From: Rhodoferax fermentans
Lineage (GTDB): Bacteria; Pseudomonadota; Gammaproteobacteria; Burkholderiales; Burkholderiaceae_C
Length of the DNA stretch: 64,000 nucleotides
NCBI RefSeq assembly: GCF_002017865.1
Contig: NZ_MTJN01000002.1
Coordinates: forward strand, 4,092,001-4,156,000
Reading direction: 5' to 3'
Shown here: positions 3,305 to 36,536 of the stretch, one piece after another
How the letters are laid out: every line of letters begins with the position of its first letter
Numbering within the stretch: the stretch's first letter is position 1
Notes under the pieces: model-generated
What the model was told of the DNA's origin: nothing
The model's database searches: none
What the model saw: the letters and a program-made list of their open reading frames with translations, nothing else
Position numbers and translations under genes: made by a program

Positions 3305-4049
3305 TGCTTTGTCTTTGTCAGACGGGCTTGCCCTGCCGGGCGGGTGTCGGGATATGCGCCCGACTGCGCAGCTGGTTTTCTCCATTTCGCCTGAGCGGCA
3401 AGCGGTTGCCGGGATGTGCGCCCGGCTGCGCACTCACTTTCTTTCGTTTCGCCGAAAGAAAGTAAGCAAAGAAAGGGCGACCCCACTGTCTGCGACCCGA
3501 AGCAAAGCTTCGGGCAACCTGAGTGATGCAGGTTTGGCGGGGAACCGCTCGAACTCGCTACGCTCAGACAATCGCGGTTCTCTTTCCCGCCAAACCCGCG
3601 CCACTCAGGCGCATACAGAGGGGACCCACAGAATACCGCTCGTGGCGCATGACGCCACATTGCGCGTGCACCCGACCGCTGGAACCAACCAGCGCTGCAA
3701 TGCCCGGCTAGGCCGGGCGAGCAGTGCTGCGCAGGGCGCCGTGGTGCGTCGGCGAGTAGCGCAGGGATGGGCGGATCAGGGATCGCGATTGTGTGAGGCG
3801 AAGCCGAGTTCGAGCGAGACCCCGCCCGGAACGAGCAACGCAGCGTACCGGCACCCCGTGCCGGGCGACGCATTCGGCTCGCTTTTCTTTTGGGCACTTT
3901 TCTTTGGCGAAGCAAAGAAAAGTGCCTCGCCCGCCGGGGCGAGACCCGGCCAACCTGCGCAGCAAAAATCAATAAAAAACACCAACCTGACTTCGCTCGC
4001 CGCAGCAACACCAGGCCTGCGCAACCAAGAACAAAAAGGATAAAGACAG
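3305..4049. repeat. Long non-coding interspersed repeat block between urtD and urtE
   Basis: This stretch carries no credible gene: open frames exist on both strands but give low-complexity Arg/Ala/Pro/Ser peptides. It is dense in palindromes: ACTTTCTTTCG (3436-3446) pairs with CGAAAGAAAGT (3453-3463); CCCGAAGC/GCTTCGGG around 3497-3515; and a perfect 14-bp stem at 3893-3906 and 3913-3926 (GGCACTTTTCTTTG and its complement). Two imperfect direct copies of a GC-rich unit lie at about 3341-3375 and 3402-3437. From memory, very similar blocks are scattered through genomes of Comamonadaceae and Xanthomonas and are often mis-annotated as proteins; that recollection was not checked here. Confidence 0.75.
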
Positions 4050-30749: not shown

Positions 30750-31754
30750 TTAACCCTCAAACTGCGGGTGCAGCTGTTTGATGCGGCTCATGACCATGGC
30801 GGCGGCGGCGGTGCGGGTCTCGACCCCCAGTTTGGCAAACACCCGCTCCAGGTGTTTTTTGACCGTCATCGGGCTGCTGCCAACAATGTCACCGATGTCG
30901 CGGTTGATCTTGCCCTTGACCACCCAGTACAGCACCTCGGCCTCGCGCGGGGTGAGTTTGAAGCTCAGCGCGATGGCCTCGATCACACTTTGTTCACTGA
31001 GCTCCTGCATGATGATCAGCCAGTCGCCCCCGCCCTCACTGTCACCAATCTGCTGGTGCAGCCGGAAGGTCAGGCGGTTGGCGCCATGCTCGACACTCAG
31101 ACGTGGCGGCTCGGTCAAAGGCTCCTTGGCTTGCACATGACGGCGCAGCCAGACCAGCACCGGCTCGGGGGTGATCGGTGCGTCGGTGCCGTAATAACGC
31201 GCCAGCAGCTCCCGCGCCAGCGGGGTTTGCCACATCAGTTTGCCGTCGCTCACCCGCACCGTGATGCTGGCGTAACCAAAGGCGTCGAGTGCACTGCGCG
31301 CCTGGCGCCGCTCACGCGCGCCCTGCAAATGCACCGCCATGCGCGCCAGCACCTCCTTGGGTTTGATCGGTTTGGTGACGTAGTCGACCCCGCCGGACTC
31401 GAGCGCGGCCACCAGGTGTTCGGTCTCGGTCAGACCGGTCATGAACACAATCGGGATGTGGCTGGTTTGCGGCAGGCTCTTGAGGCGGCGCGCCACCTCA
31501 AAACCGTCCATGCCGGGCATCATCGCGTCGAGCAGGATGATGTCGGGCAAGACCTGGGCAGCGCGTTGTAAGGCAGCCTCGCCGTTGATGGCCACCAGCA
31601 CGGTGTAGCCTGATTCATCGAGTGCGTCATGCAACACCGCCAGGTTGTCGGGCACGTCGTCGACGATCAGCACCACGTCGCTGTTGGCACGGTCCAGCGT
31701 GCGGTCCAGCAACGGGCGCGGCAAGGCGCTTTGCAAATTAGTTTTCGTTGGCAT
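30750..31754 (-). CDS. Response regulator: receiver + LuxR-type HTH
   Basis: A 334-residue regulator. The receiver domain (residues ~27-145) has the acidic pair VDD and phospho-acceptor Asp76 in DIILLDAMMPGMDG, with the conserved Lys in YVTKPIKP. The middle ~120 residues resemble a PAS-like linker, and the C-terminal ~65 residues are a LuxR/NarL-type helix-turn-helix (LTPREAEVLYWVVKGKINRDIGDIVG). Its ATG overlaps by 17 bp the end of the upstream NCS1-permease/kinase fusion, so the two form a cognate pair in one transcript. Targets are unknown; the divergent urease operon is the obvious candidate. Confidence 0.87.
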   Translation of the reverse strand: MPTKTNLQSALPRPLLDRTLDRANSDVVLIVDDVPDNLAVLHDALDESGYTVLVAINGEAALQRAAQVLPDIILLDAMMPGMDGFEVARRLKSLPQTSHIPIVFMTGLTETEHLVAALESGGVDYVTKPIKPKEVLARMAVHLQGARERRQARSALDAFGYASITVRVSDGKLMWQTPLARELLARYYGTDAPITPEPVLVWLRRHVQAKEPLTEPPRLSVEHGANRLTFRLHQQIGDSEGGGDWLIIMQELSEQSVIEAIALSFKLTPREAEVLYWVVKGKINRDIGDIVGSSPMTVKKHLERVFAKLGVETRTAAAAMVMSRIKQLHPQFEG

Positions 31755-34700
31755 AACTGCTCAGTTGGCCCAACATGGCCTCAAACTGGAACTGCTTGGC
31801 CAGCTCACGCATGCCCGCTACAAAGTGGGCGCAATGCGGGTGGTTCAGTTCGATGGTGTCGAGCTGGTTCAAGATGCCGCGGTAGTACCCCAGCACCACC
31901 AGCTCACGCAGCGCGTCGACCTGCGGTTTGGGTGGAACCACCAGCTCGGCCACCGGTGCGGCCGTGTCCTCAGCCACCGGCACCGGGTTTTCCAGCCAGC
32001 TCAGTTTCAGGCGGCGCTCCAGCCAGTCCAGCAGGTCAATGTGGCGCACCGGCTTGAGGATGAAGTCCTCGCTCGGCACACCCAAGTCGTTGTCCAGCCC
32101 ACGGTCAAACGCGTTGGCTGAAACAATAGCAACAAATGGCGCAGGATAAGGGCTATCAGCCAATAAGACACGTAAACGGCGGATGGTTTCCCAGCCGTCG
32201 ATTCCGGGCATGGCCAGGTCCATCAGGATCACCTCAGGCAAGTAGCCAGCGGCCAACAGGTCCAGGCAGTCGTGGCCACTGGCGGCCGTGCGCACCTCAA
32301 ACCCGAGCGGCTGCAATAACTTGACCAGCACCTCGCGGTCGGCCTCCTCGTTGTCCACCACCAGGATGCGTCGGCGTGCCCCCGCGTAGCCCCGGCGCGG
32401 GCGGCGCACAAACAGGCGGTTCTGGTGTTTGGAGGCGGGGGAATACACCGAGTGATCGAGTGCACTGCTGACCTCGGGCAAAAACAGCTTGGCCTTGAAG
32501 GTGGAGCCCACACCGGGTGTGCTGCTGACCGTCATCTGGCCACCCATCAGGTCGGTCAACATGCGGGCAATGGTCAGGCCCAGGCCAGCGCCGGGTGCGG
32601 CATTACCCGCACCCTGGGCACGTGTGAAGGGCTCAAAAATGCGTGTGAGTTCGGACTCGGACAACCCCGGGCCGGAGTCCTCCACCTCGATCACCGCCAT
32701 CTCACGGGCATAACTCACTCGCAGCGTGACCTGGCCTTGGGTGGTGAACTTGATGGCGTTGCCCACCAGGTTGATCAGAATCTGACGCACCCGTTTTTCA
32801 TCAGCACGCACCACGGTCGGCAGGTTGCCGTCCACCTCACAGCGGAAGGTCAGGCCCTTGGCTTGTGCCTCCAACTCAAACAGGCTGGCAATATCGCTCA
32901 CAAAATCGGCAAAGAGCAGAGGTTTGACCAAGAGGGTGAGGCGCCCGGCCTCAATGTGAGCCATGTCCAGCGTGCCTTCGATCAGGGACAGCAGGTGTTC
33001 ACCACCGCGTTTGATCACGCTGACCGCCTGTTTGCGGTGCGCCGGGATGCCCGCGTCTTCCCCCATGAGCTGGGCATACCCCAGGATGCTGTTGAGCGGT
33101 GTACGCAGTTCGTGGCTGATGGCACTGATGTAACGACTTTTGGCCTGGTTGGCCAGATCAGCGGCGGCGCGCGCCTCTTCAGCCACCTGTTTGGCGCGTT
33201 GTAATGCCTCGTCGGTCTGGCGGTGCAACTCGATCTCGCGCAGCAACAAATGGGTTTGCCGGTTGGACTCTTCCTGCGCCACCAGACGGCTTTTGTGCGC
33301 CAGCACCACCCACCAGGCCACCAGACCACCAATCAGGATCAGCGCCATGTAGGCCTTCAAGAAACCCGCGCGCAACACATCCATGGCTGATTGCAGCGCC
33401 TGTGGGCTGCTCAGGGTCTGGGCCAAGGTTCGGGTTTCCTGGTGGTAGAGCAGCCCGAACACACTGGCCAGCAGCGGCGCAATCACCAGCATCAGCATCA
33501 GAAAGGTGCCCAGACCTTTGTCAAGATGCGCCCAGGCAGGTTGCGGCAACAACCAGCGCAGAGCAGCCTGCCACTGGCTGGACAGGCTGGCGTGGGGTTT
33601 GCACAGGTCACCACAACGTGCATCGAGCGTGCAGCACAGCGAGCAGATCGGCCCCTGGTAAGCCGGGCAATGGGCCATGTCCGGCGCCTCGTACTCGCGT
33701 TCACAGATCACACAGGTGCTGACCTTCAGGCGCTGATAGCTGCCACTGTCTGCCTTGACTCCTTCTCCCTCTGGGAGAAGGTTGGGATGAGGGTTGGGCC
33801 GCGCCAAGTAGTATTTGCCACCCGTTGCCCAGGCCAGCAGGGGCGAGGCAAGCAACGCGGTGCCCAGGGCGATCAACGCCGAGAACGCCTGCGCCAGCGG
33901 CCCCAGAACACCCAAGTGGGCGGTGATCGACAGGCCAGAGGCCAGCACCATCGCCCCCACCCCCACCGGGTTGATGTCGTACAGGTGGGCACGTTTGAAC
34001 TCGATGCCCGGTGGCGACAGGCCCAGCGGTTTGTTGATGACCAGGTCCGCCACCACCACCATCATCCAGGCAATCGCGATGTTGGAGTACAGCCCCAGCA
34101 CCTCCCCCAGCGCGGCAAACACGTTCATCTCCATCAGCATGAAGGCGATCAGGGTGTTGAACACCACCCACACCACCCGCCCCGGGTGGCTGTGCGTCAG
34201 GCGCGAGAAAAAGTTGCTCCAGGCCAGCGACCCGGCGTAGGCGTTGGTGACATTGATCTTGAGCTGCGACAACACCACAAACAGCGCGGTGGCCGCCACC
34301 GCCCAGCCGTAGTTGGGAAAGACGTATTCATAAGCCGCCAGATACATCTGGTTCGGATCAACCGCACGCTCGGTGGGCACCGCGTTCTGGATCGCTAGGT
34401 AAGCCAGCAAGGCGCCGCCCAGCATCTTGAGCACCCCCAGGACCACCCAGCCCGGCCCACCCGCCAGCACACCCAGCCACCAGCGTCGGCCATTGGCTTG
34501 GGTTTTGGCGGGCATGAAGCGCAGGTAATCGGCCTGCTCACCCATCTGCGTCATCAAGGCCACCCCCACCGTCAACGCAGCACCAAAAAGCGGCAGATTA
34601 AAACCATCCGACGATCCTTTATCACCAATGTAGTGCGTCACCCCGGCAAAAGCGTTCGGGTCGCGCAGCAACACATAGACAAAAGGCACAACCAACATCA

Positions 34701-35301
34701 CCAGCCACAGCGGCTGCGTCCAGACCTGCAGGCGGCTGATGGTCGACACCCCATGGGTCACCAGCGGAATCACCGCCAGCGCACACACCAGGTAACCCCA
34801 GCGCGGCGGGATACCCAGCGCCAGCTCGAGCGCATAGGCCATCACCGCTGCCTCCAGCGCAAAAAAGATGAAGGTGAAGCTCGCGTAGATCAGCGAGGTG
34901 AGGGTCGAGCCGATGTAGCCAAAACCCGCGCCACGGGTCAGCAAATCCATATCCACCCCATACCGGGCGGCGTAATAACTGATGGGCAGACCGGCCAGGA
35001 AGATGATCAGCCCGGTGGCCAGAATCGCCCAAAACGCGTTGACAAAACCGTATTGCACCAGCAGCGTGGCACCCACCGCCTCCAGTATCAAAAATGCAGC
35101 AGCACCCCCAAGCGCAGTCTGGGCTACCTGCCATTCCGACCACTTGCGAAAACGCTGCGGGGTGAAACGCAGCGCGTAATCCTCCAGGGTTTCACGCGCG
35201 ACCCAGCCGTTGTAGTCCCGGCGCACCAAAGTGATGCGCTGGGGCGCTTTTGGTTCGGAATGGGGCACGGCAACAGAAGGGGGAAATACATCGTTTGTCA
35301 C
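31738..35301 (-). CDS. NCS1 permease-histidine kinase-receiver fusion sensor
   Basis: A protein of about 1187 residues. Residues ~10-490 look like a complete NCS1 (cytosine/purine/allantoin) permease with about 12 hydrophobic segments (ETLEDYALRFTPQRFRKWSE, GEQADYLRFMPAK). A linker with many cysteines follows (~528-569, CVICER..CPAY..CSLCC..CGDLC), likely metal-binding, then two more membrane segments, a coiled coil, a HisKA domain with His730 (SHELRTPLNSILGY), an HATPase (GNAIKF, DSGPGL) and a receiver with Asp1028 (VILMDLAMPG). It resembles transporter-kinases such as CbrA in plan. I chose GTG 35301, just after a sigma-54 promoter; GTG 35268 or an ATG at 35379 with GAGGTG are alternatives. 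A purine-breakdown compound is a plausible ligand. Confidence 0.85.
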   Translation of the reverse strand: MTNDVFPPSVAVPHSEPKAPQRITLVRRDYNGWVARETLEDYALRFTPQRFRKWSEWQVAQTALGGAAAFLILEAVGATLLVQYGFVNAFWAILATGLIIFLAGLPISYYAARYGVDMDLLTRGAGFGYIGSTLTSLIYASFTFIFFALEAAVMAYALELALGIPPRWGYLVCALAVIPLVTHGVSTISRLQVWTQPLWLVMLVVPFVYVLLRDPNAFAGVTHYIGDKGSSDGFNLPLFGAALTVGVALMTQMGEQADYLRFMPAKTQANGRRWWLGVLAGGPGWVVLGVLKMLGGALLAYLAIQNAVPTERAVDPNQMYLAAYEYVFPNYGWAVAATALFVVLSQLKINVTNAYAGSLAWSNFFSRLTHSHPGRVVWVVFNTLIAFMLMEMNVFAALGEVLGLYSNIAIAWMMVVVADLVINKPLGLSPPGIEFKRAHLYDINPVGVGAMVLASGLSITAHLGVLGPLAQAFSALIALGTALLASPLLAWATGGKYYLARPNPHPNLLPEGEGVKADSGSYQRLKVSTCVICEREYEAPDMAHCPAYQGPICSLCCTLDARCGDLCKPHASLSSQWQAALRWLLPQPAWAHLDKGLGTFLMLMLVIAPLLASVFGLLYHQETRTLAQTLSSPQALQSAMDVLRAGFLKAYMALILIGGLVAWWVVLAHKSRLVAQEESNRQTHLLLREIELHRQTDEALQRAKQVAEEARAAADLANQAKSRYISAISHELRTPLNSILGYAQLMGEDAGIPAHRKQAVSVIKRGGEHLLSLIEGTLDMAHIEAGRLTLLVKPLLFADFVSDIASLFELEAQAKGLTFRCEVDGNLPTVVRADEKRVRQILINLVGNAIKFTTQGQVTLRVSYAREMAVIEVEDSGPGLSESELTRIFEPFTRAQGAGNAAPGAGLGLTIARMLTDLMGGQMTVSSTPGVGSTFKAKLFLPEVSSALDHSVYSPASKHQNRLFVRRPRRGYAGARRRILVVDNEEADREVLVKLLQPLGFEVRTAASGHDCLDLLAAGYLPEVILMDLAMPGIDGWETIRRLRVLLADSPYPAPFVAIVSANAFDRGLDNDLGVPSEDFILKPVRHIDLLDWLERRLKLSWLENPVPVAEDTAAPVAELVVPPKPQVDALRELVVLGYYRGILNQLDTIELNHPHCAHFVAGMRELAKQFQFEAMLGQLSSYANEN
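32125..32165. repeat. Repeat-like sequence inside the receiver domain of the fusion kinase
   Basis: AACAATAGCAACAAATGG and then GATAAGGGCTATCAGCC resemble one degenerate copy of the AGCCCTT palindrome family, read in frame inside the receiver (SPYPAPFVAIVSAN). The match covers only one arm and may be partly chance. Confidence 0.4.
33761..33797. repeat. In-frame hairpin repeat coding NPHPNLLPEGEG
   Basis: CCTTCTCCC and GGGAGAAGG form a perfect 9-bp stem with a 3-nt loop, followed by TTGGGATGAGGGTTGG. This is a widespread bacterial repeat that I recall from many proteobacterial genomes, where it reads PHPNPLPEGEG when it falls in genes. Here it forms about 12 residues of the linker between the permease and cysteine-rich parts. 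Confidence 0.7.
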
Positions 35302-35313
35302 AGGCCAGAACGT

Positions 35314-35327
35314 GCAGTTTTCGTGCC
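35314..35327 (-). promoter_or_regulatory. Sigma-54 promoter of the permease-kinase/response-regulator operon
   Basis: On the minus strand TGGCACGAAAACTGCA gives GG, ten bases, GC, with a perfect TGGCACG -24 element. The predicted start of transcription is near 35302, immediately before the GTG at 35301, so either that start is leaderless or the GTG at 35268 is used. Confidence 0.68.
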
Positions 35328-35351
35328 ACCTGCCATACCAGCCCTGCATAC

Positions 35352-35365
35352 GGCACAGCTTTTGC
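35352..35365 (+). promoter_or_regulatory. Sigma-54 promoter of the urease operon
   Basis: CGGCACAGCTTTTGCA has GG at 35352-35353 and GC at 35364-35365, exactly ten bases apart, with GGCAC and TTGCA elements. The predicted transcript start is about 35377, one base before the first of three tandem ureA-like mini-frames. It is divergent from, and only 24 bp away from, the sigma-54 promoter of the kinase gene. Confidence 0.65.
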
Positions 35366-35377
35366 ATAATGCCTCGC

Positions 35378-35443
35378 ATGGAACTCACACCTCGCGTTCG
35401 GACCGCATTTGCGGCCGCACGAGCTAATTATTCAAAGCATTGA
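35378..35443 (+). CDS. Leader mini-ORF 1 (ureA-start mimic)
   Basis: A 21-codon frame beginning MELTPRVR and ending ARANYSKH. Its start lies at about +1 or +2 of the predicted sigma-54 transcript, so it would be read leaderless or not at all. The first six residues are those of UreA. There are 14 nt between its stop and the next start. Whether it is translated is unknown. Confidence 0.45.
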   Translation: MELTPRVRTAFAAARANYSKH

Positions 35444-35457
35444 GTGAAACGAAATAA

Positions 35458-35526
35458 ATGGAATTAACCCCTCGTGTTCGGCACGCATCAGCGGCCGCAC
35501 GAGCTAATGACCCCAGCAATGAGTAA
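35458..35526 (+). CDS. Leader mini-ORF 2 (ureA-start mimic)
   Basis: A 22-codon frame beginning MELTPRVR and ending ARANDPSNE, in the same reading phase as ureA but closed by TAA. Its hairpin lies inside codons 5-15. The stop is 6 nt before the next ATG, an arrangement that favours reinitiation or translational coupling. Confidence 0.5.
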   Translation: MELTPRVRHASAAARANDPSNE

Positions 35527-35532
35527 AACGAA

Positions 35533-35601
35533 ATGGAATTGACCCCTCGTGTTCGACCGGCATGGACGGTCGCACGAGCTAACGACCCCTGGATTGAGTG
35601 A
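35533..35601 (+). CDS. Leader mini-ORF 3 (ureA-start mimic)
   Basis: A 22-codon frame beginning MELTPRVR and ending ARANDPWIE, in phase with ureA and stopped by TGA 6 nt before the ureA ATG. The stop lies inside GAGTGAAACG, the only ribosome-binding-like sequence for ureA, so translation of this frame should influence ureA initiation directly. Confidence 0.5.
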   Translation: MELTPRVRPAWTVARANDPWIE

Positions 35602-35607
35602 AACGAA

Positions 35608-35910
<303 letters not shown>

Positions 35911-35942: not shown

Positions 35943-36536
35943 ATGCGTCCATCCGCCAAATCGGCTCTATTTCTGATCGCTGCCTGCGTCCTGTCCACAG
36001 GGGCTAGCGCCCATACCGGCCATGGCACCCACAGCCTGATGGAAGGCCTGGCCCACCCGTTTGGCGCTGACCATTTGCTGGCCATGCTGGCGGTGGGCGT
36101 CTGGTCGGTCAGCGCCCTGCCTGCCAGCAAAGCCTGGCAAGGCCCAGCCACCTTTTTGCTGGCGCTGGTGTTCAGTGCGGTGCTGGGGGCCAGCGGGTTC
36201 ACCGTGCCTTATCTGGAACACGCGATTGCGCTCTCGGTCACGCTGTTTGGTGCCATGCTGGTGCTGGCCAGCACACCGATGCCCAAGGCGTTTGGCTTGA
36301 CGCTGATCGCGCTCGCAGCCTCGCTGCACGGCCTGGCCCACGGCGCCGAAACGCCCGAGACGGGTTTTGCCGGGTATGCGGTCGGTTTCCTGCTGACCAC
36401 CGCAGCTCTGCATCTGGGGGGTGTGGGCCTTGGCCTGAGCATCCGGCGCTGGTTGAGTGAACGCAGCACCACCGTGCTGGCCAGCCTGGGTGGCTTGCTC
36501 AGCGTGGCTGGCTTGGTCTTGTTCAACCAAGTCTGA
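35943..36536 (+). CDS. ureJ: HupE/UreJ family membrane protein
   Basis: A 197-residue membrane protein with a signal-like N-terminus ending GASAHTGHG, a [18 protein letters not shown] motif near residue 38 and about six hydrophobic segments. HupE/UreJ proteins are thought to be nickel permeases or channels; the His and Asp of the HPFGxDH motif bind metal. Its place between ureA and ureB is known from several Burkholderiales and fits nickel supply to urease. The gaps (32 bp before, 10 bp after) support one operon. Confidence 0.9.

Follow-up and report, generated by a model that had tools for sequence, protein, structure and literature searches.

A tandem cassette of start copies and hairpins upstream of ureA in Rhodoferax fermentans and relatives, a possible translational lock

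The urease leader in the 64-kb window (the whole stretch of Rhodoferax fermentans DNA that was analysed, 64,000 nucleotides) contains three tandem units of 80, 75 and 75 nt directly upstream of ureA, and each unit is composed of a copy of the ureA start and a bulged hairpin. By comparison of related sequences it was shown that the outer 3' strand of the hairpin, here called strand T, complements the region of codons 5-7 in the start that follows and covaries with it, and that the inner hairpin covaries too. The cassette is a family which, as far as downstream DNA could be read, is found only before ureA and once before a ureA remnant. Possibly it is a tandem translational lock that sits on the ureA start and that ribosomes, or strand exchange, at the upstream start copy would open; to this function we give an even chance. 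If this is true, urease, a major nitrogen enzyme of bacteria in fresh water and soil, is under a cis-acting RNA family not described before, which links synonymous codons of the gene to a strand of the leader and whose control units vary in number from one close relative to the next. The cassette also offers a direct way to test what tandem start copies do to translation and by which route a leaderless gene acquires a leader.

The features of the region, in positions of the window, are as follows.

35352..35365, + strand: sigma54-like promoter motif GGCACAGCTTTTGC, predicted transcript start at about 35377, beside the unit 1 ATG (from sequence)
35378..35457, + strand: unit 1 (80 nt), with start mimic MELTPR, hairpin and spacer (from sequence)
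35391..35396, + strand: unit 1 start arm, CTCGCG (from sequence)
35418..35423, + strand: unit 1 strand T, CACGAG, fully complementary to the start arm of unit 2 and mismatched at one position to its own
35458..35532, + strand: unit 2 (75 nt)
35471..35476, + strand: unit 2 start arm, CTCGTG (from sequence)
35498..35503, + strand: unit 2 strand T, CACGAG (from sequence)
35533..35607, + strand: unit 3 (75 nt)
35546..35551, + strand: unit 3 start arm, CTCGTG (from sequence)
35573..35578, + strand: unit 3 strand T, CACGAG, complementary to ureA 35621-35626 (from sequence and covariation)
35608..35910, + strand: ureA, urease gamma subunit (Pfam Urease_gamma, E 2.5e-48)
35621..35626, + strand: ureA codons 5-7 (CTCGTG), last partner of strand T (from covariation)

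The unit openings match that of ureA (ATGGAAYTNAC.CCTCG(T/C)G), and all three mimics read MELTPR and leave the ureA sequence after CTCG(T/C)G. An earlier note on this DNA had described three tandem start mimics with periods of 80, 75 and 75, each closed by a stop 6-14 nt before the next start; the mimics were indeed located at 35378, 35458 and 35533, with 14, 6 and 6 nt left between stop and next ATG. The hairpin is predicted in all three units as an outer stem, a 2-nt TT bulge, as the note had said, and an inner stem. The outer stem CTCGTG/CACGAG that the note gave holds for units 2 and 3, and unit 1 has CTCGCG/CACGAG with one C.A mismatch. The spacer of the units ends GAGTRAAACGAA. Tandem Repeats Finder reported a period of 75 with 2.3 copies at 35456-35626 (score 244); its other row in the whole window is a single weak 18-nt repeat. 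When the opening 19 nt of each of 669 frames of the window (ATG start, at least 80 aa) were looked for further upstream, ureA gave 18/19, one 17/19 match was found at 3414, which resembles an intergenic repeat, and three matches lay at the 14/19 threshold. At 3350-3435 (+), two like copies around ATGTGCGCCCGGCTGCGCA stand 62 nt apart in apparently non-coding DNA, unrelated to the cassette. Taken alone, the whole 305-nt leader has no unusual stability (z -1.18; 14 of 100 shuffles did as well), no Rfam family reached gathering score between 34900 and 36000, and a search of the R. fermentans genome outside the array gave a lone match of 26 nt (E 0.89).

Units were found in 15 of the 89 genomes of the genus. 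ureA was matched in 58 of the 89, one match being a 20-residue fragment, and 57 ureA upstream regions comprise 14 with one to three units (two degenerate) and 43 without. A covariance model, R1, was built from 17 genus units and used with stricter filters, which limits its sensitivity; it detected units in 27 genomes from 17 genera, that of R. fermentans included, in a family sample of 399 genomes, 307 of which have ureA at E <= 1e-30. The 26 family loci besides that of R. fermentans comprise 25 before ureA and one (L107) before an apparent ureA remnant. The L107 unit precedes a short frame in which the ureA start is fused to the UreA end (MELTEAALPDGGRLVTVHQP), as if most of ureA had been deleted. 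An order sample of 399 genomes gave no match except R. fermentans itself. An exact-pattern scan of a named species collection returned 31 contigs, with Rhodoferax, Acidovorax, Curvibacter, Hydrogenophaga, Hylemonella, Polaromonas and Pelomonas among their titles; ureA lies downstream of the array in 29, and the remaining two are cut. As the earlier note had thought possible, unit number varies among relatives, from 0 to 5; Hydrogenophaga taeniospiralis NBRC 102512 carries two units and Curvibacter sp. PAE-UM one.

The unit core without the start was matched in 22 of the 399 family genomes. Only four core matches lay away from ureA (G142, G357, G417 and G419), and these were taken as chance since they are 19-27 nt long and inside apparent coding frames. 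No copies at unrelated sites, of the MITE or REP type, were found in the R. fermentans genome or the family genomes searched, and a plasmid collection gave two Klebsiella records with a match limited to the ureA coding part.

Pairing was studied in a working set of 79 units in 52 arrays, from which sequence duplicates and eight parse false positives had been removed. The G081 array, cut by a contig end, and L107 are in none of the 52 arrays; L046 and L100, with degenerate units, were left out of promoter and pair counts and counted as unit-free in the presence tree. The two halves of the same hairpin fold to a mean of -18.35 kcal/mol, against -15.72 when halves are swapped between units (78 units, L006 being skipped; 0/20000 permutations as good), an average cost of 2.6 kcal/mol. 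With 39 less redundant units the values were -17.37 and -14.75 kcal/mol (0/20000).

Alignment A2 holds the last unit and the ureA start of 51 of the 52 arrays (without L005); strand T was assigned by hand in 10 of the 52. Covariation of T with the ureA start is 0.314 against a shuffled mean of 0.095 (0/500 as high), with 35 double-change cells against 8.6 in shuffles, and slid registers reach at most 0.082. T covaries with its own 5' arm at 0.190 (shuffled 0.094, 0/500; best slid register 0.147). The inner stem reaches 0.194 against a shuffled 0.107 (0/500; slid registers at most 0.085), which bears out the compensatory inner-stem change that the earlier note had read from three hairpins. Further pair types are less striking: 75, 6 and 66 of 500 shuffles were as high for T with ureA, T with its own arm and the inner stem, respectively. 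Watson-Crick cells number 290 of 312 for T with ureA (permuted mean 242.7, highest of 5000 being 260) and 249 for T with its own arm (mean 226.1, highest 243). The first 17 units alone gave weak covariation (0.092 against 0.069, 7/500 shuffles as high; RNAalifold covariation term +0.24), so that the signal is clear only with the wider set. The note had allowed that relatives might carry the units as ordinary duplications lacking conserved pairing; the pairing is conserved.

At the third position of codon 6 and its partner (n=52), T-A occurs 28 times, C-G 13, G-C 3, A-T 3 and C.A 5; at codon 5 (n=52) the counts are T-A 34, C-G 12, G-C 4 and two others. Thus, all four Watson-Crick pair types are present at codon 6 and three at codon 5. 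CCT stands at codon 5 in 35 of 52 ureA genes with units and in 8 of 65 without. A perfect match of T to the following start (ureA codons 5-7) was counted in 36 of the 52 arrays, and one to its own start copy upstream in 20; for the 33 single-unit arrays the counts are 19 for ureA and 5 for the own arm. In 50 of 78 units the own arm and the next one are not the same; among these, T matches the next arm better in 31, its own better in 6 and the two equally well in 13. L087 has the starts CGCGTG, CTCGTG and CGCGTG with the strands CACGAG and CACGCG; in L119 and L088, T tracks ureA rather than its own arm; and in L132, compared with L098 and L115, T and ureA changed together. Some units of L006, L097, L103, L104 and L136 lack an own outer stem when folded in isolation. 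Since one strand is shared, the pairings of T with its own arm and with the next start are mutually exclusive; two exclusive pairings on a shared strand, one of them at the start of the gene, are a feature of translational attenuators.

A block running from T to the next start, if moved by recombination, would carry its own match because the two are neighbours, and part of the excess fit of T to the next start over its own arm may therefore be history. The seven start types with matching strands imply that compensatory change was needed somewhere. The ureA tree, built from 273 columns and with stars on 10 of its 116 inner branches, is weak, and the shuffles leave relatedness in. Tree contrasts gave five independent well-supported pairs, with which the 0.05 level is out of reach: T with ureA averaged 2.2 for and 0 against, and T with its own arm 0.6 for and 2.1 against.

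The units are 58 to 80 nt long and number 1 to 5 per array; ATG is kept in 76 of 79. Their length follows no multiple-of-three rule (21 of 79 are divisible by three), and all 20 multiple-of-three units that start with ATG have an in-frame stop before the next start. Of the 76 mimic ORFs, 57 have their stop 4-25 nt short of the following ATG and one has it 42 nt short; 13 run 10 nt into the next start and one runs 20 nt into it, and for 4 the sequence read contains no stop. An upstream ORF that ends close to the downstream start is a feature of coupling leaders. MELTPRVRP is a common opening, and the second half differs in frame and residues between species, so that conservation does not lie in the peptide. 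Conservation of the peptide as the driver was rejected, since both frames and residues drift. Across the hairpin region the three frames are equally open (in 76, 77 and 76 of 77 units, L105 unit 1 and L112 unit 1 being skipped). Beyond T, frames without a stop number 4 of 79 in the mimic frame against 19 and 12 of 79 in the others, no more than a mild hint. In L105 both units measure 62 nt; their inner stems are quite unlike each other, and a strong Shine-Dalgarno-like TAAGGA stands ahead of the next ATG.

The unit lengths, free of a multiple-of-three rule, and the similar take-off and landing sequences with a hairpin between them bring to mind translational bypassing, in which ribosomes would hop from the CGN codon of the mimic to the matching ureA codon and make the same UreA protein. 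A CGN codon does recur, though the arms so often differ, and that divergence speaks against hopping, as does the make-up of the repeat, which holds a whole start and a spacer with Shine-Dalgarno-like energy, as initiation at ureA needs. Bypassing is judged very improbable.

A further explanation, related to the ligand- or ribosome-sensing leader RNA that the earlier note had listed, is a sensing leader. Here the hairpins or the start copies would be bound by a protein, a small RNA or a metabolite, and binding would decide whether T pairs with its own arm or with the next start; the copies would serve as repeated sites or decoys. The repeated hairpins are alike in shape, both alternative pairings of T covary, and start copies would give a start-binding repressor extra sites. 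Against this, loop length and sequence vary between units, so no conserved unpaired motif is seen, and the conserved unpaired aptamer residues of a metabolite riboswitch were not found; the 43 of 57 genus loci without units also count against it. Variation of loop and peptide speaks against a classical aptamer or arrest peptide, as far as such sequence features can tell, and we consider a sensing leader unlikely.

In the translational lock proposed here, each unit would be a cis-acting RNA cassette that controls initiation at the following start, with the order start mimic, inner hairpin, strand T, spacer with a weak ribosome-binding site, and next start. T paired to the ureA start would enclose the ribosome-binding site and AUG in a loop, which would be the locked state; alternatively, T would pair with the mimic just upstream. 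A ribosome on the mimic ORF would have to traverse T. Because T can switch to the mimic and the ribosome crosses T, translation of ureA would be tied to events at the promoter-proximal start copy, by coupling with strand exchange, and the unit number would act as a heritable dial. The earlier note had offered a decoy or coupling device as one of three possibilities; it is the best supported of them, and the note missed the strongest pairing, that of T with the next start, ureA codons 5-7 included.

In favour of the lock, when the first 22 nt of the mimic were covered, predicted pairing of T with ureA rose from a mean of 0.15 to 0.73, and from 0.02 to 0.96 in R. fermentans. Counting against the lock, free RNA prefers the own-arm pairing of T, predicted at 0.67 against 0.09 for ureA (the value of 0.15 above refers to a ureA stretch cut a little shorter). 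Covering 30 nt gave a mean of 0.65 for T with ureA, yet the R. fermentans value fell to 0.06. The ureA AUG is predicted to be largely unpaired throughout (0.63 in free RNA, 0.51 and 0.53 with the mimic covered).

The promoter context was compared by means of sigma54-like motifs, called with what we take to be the sigma54 consensus. Among the 65 unit-free loci, the motif ends 12 nt before the ureA ATG in 35 and 11-13 nt before it in 39, and 11 have none. The ureA transcript in such loci would be nearly leaderless because of this spacing, and motif spacing in the unit-free L009-L060 suggests a conserved, nearly leaderless urease transcript in the genus. Among the 52 unit-bearing loci, the distance from motif to first mimic is 12 nt in 15, 11-13 nt in 18 and 30-50 nt in 20, and 14 have no motif; the first mimic thus often sits where unit-free relatives have ureA. 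Anti-Shine-Dalgarno energy at ureA is better in unit-bearing (-2.64) than in unit-free loci (-1.17), which counts in favour of the lock. As ureA seems nearly leaderless in many unit-free relatives, the cassette would make a leaderless gene leadered and lockable.

Where the first mimic lies 11-13 nt past the motif (18 of 52 arrays), the first hairpin would be near the 5' end, and 5'-proximal hairpins could slow decay or affect processing of the ureA message, the start copies being by-products. Such mRNA protection leaves the tracking of synonymous ureA positions by T unexplained, and with the motif 30-50 nt away in 20 arrays and absent in 14 it is regarded as quite improbable.

Divergent from ureA lies a 1216-aa frame at 31738-35388 (-) with histidine kinase and receiver domains (Pfam) and a long hydrophobic N-terminal part, without a Pfam match and permease-like by eye. 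Many relatives have nearly the same coding start as this frame upstream of ureA. A response regulator with a LuxR-type domain lies at 30750-31754 (-), also divergent from ureA, and the two genes are a candidate urea or purine sensor for urease. A HupE/UreJ gene at 35943-36536 (+) stands between ureA and the later urease genes.

Mapped on the ureA tree, the presence of units takes 23 changes, where shuffles average 38.9, and well-supported branches force at least 3. Divergence of the unit core is flat, with medians of 0.19-0.25 in all bins of ureA third-position divergence from 0.1-0.2 to 0.4-0.6, which fits either constraint or transfer. On comparing L055 with L041 and L036, and L023 with L010, a 76-nt insert was found between codon 6 and AAAAAG. 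The new start in the L055 and L023 inserts (CTTTCT, MELSPR) differs from the native start of the host. L007, which is unit-free with a CTCGTG start and adjoins the clade of R. fermentans, looks like a loss of units, and near-identical units occur inside the arrays L090 and L099. Most likely, cassettes are gained and lost via homologous recombination through the short start repeat. The earlier note had also raised a selfish insertion after codon 6 that restores the gene with a copy of its start; the arrangement is visible against unit-free relatives, but the inserted start often does not copy that of the host, and free mobility is unsupported, no copy at other genes having been found.

These observations also bear on a transferable repeat with no regulatory role, which would recombine into ureA via the start, restore the gene with a new start, and expand and contract like other tandem repeats. 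Its patchy presence, the non-native starts of two inserts, the near-identical neighbours and the apparent loss are all in its favour; covariation of three helices is unexpected for a neutral repeat, and copies at other genes were not found in the searches. It is rather unlikely on balance. The translational lock could be combined with recombination, and we tentatively suggest a start-replacement cassette: DNA would enter after ureA codon 6 by recombination through the start, the native start would stay upstream as the control start, and the new, locked start would re-create the target and so permit stacking. Strand exchange would then pass the translational state along the array, and unit number would be an evolvable dial on urease output.

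A literature search found no description of such a leader, with most subscription papers outside its reach. The leaders of erm genes are translational attenuators with mutually exclusive stems. Like them, the cassette has one strand that can pair upstream or downstream, the downstream pairing would cover a start, and a short ORF overlaps the upstream partner. Unlike them, it has no conserved arrest peptide, its upstream partner duplicates the start of the gene itself, it is tandemly repeated, and the proposed lock lies inside coding codons. Operons can show translational coupling with masked downstream starts, and the cassette similarly has an upstream ORF that mostly ends near the next start and, in the locked state, would have a structure over the downstream start; it differs in that the upstream ORF mimics the downstream start and is repeated 1-5 times. 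Tandem attenuators, with two short ORFs and alternative stem-loops in one leader, have been described for Salmonella mgtCBR, where control acts on transcription of the coding region (PMC3641672). Short ORFs and alternative stem-loops are common to both systems, and the accessible part of that account does not mention duplication of a start. In the mitochondria of Magnusiomyces capitatus, block inserts bypassed by ribosomes occur at 81 positions in 12 of 15 protein genes (PMC5009743). Going by the part of that report available, these inserts are likewise short and leave the gene product intact, unlike the cassette in that the latter occurs at one gene only and brings a complete new start. The cassette resembles mobile inserts, yet is found at no other site, and its mode of action would be that of a translational attenuator or coupling leader that does without a conserved arrest peptide.
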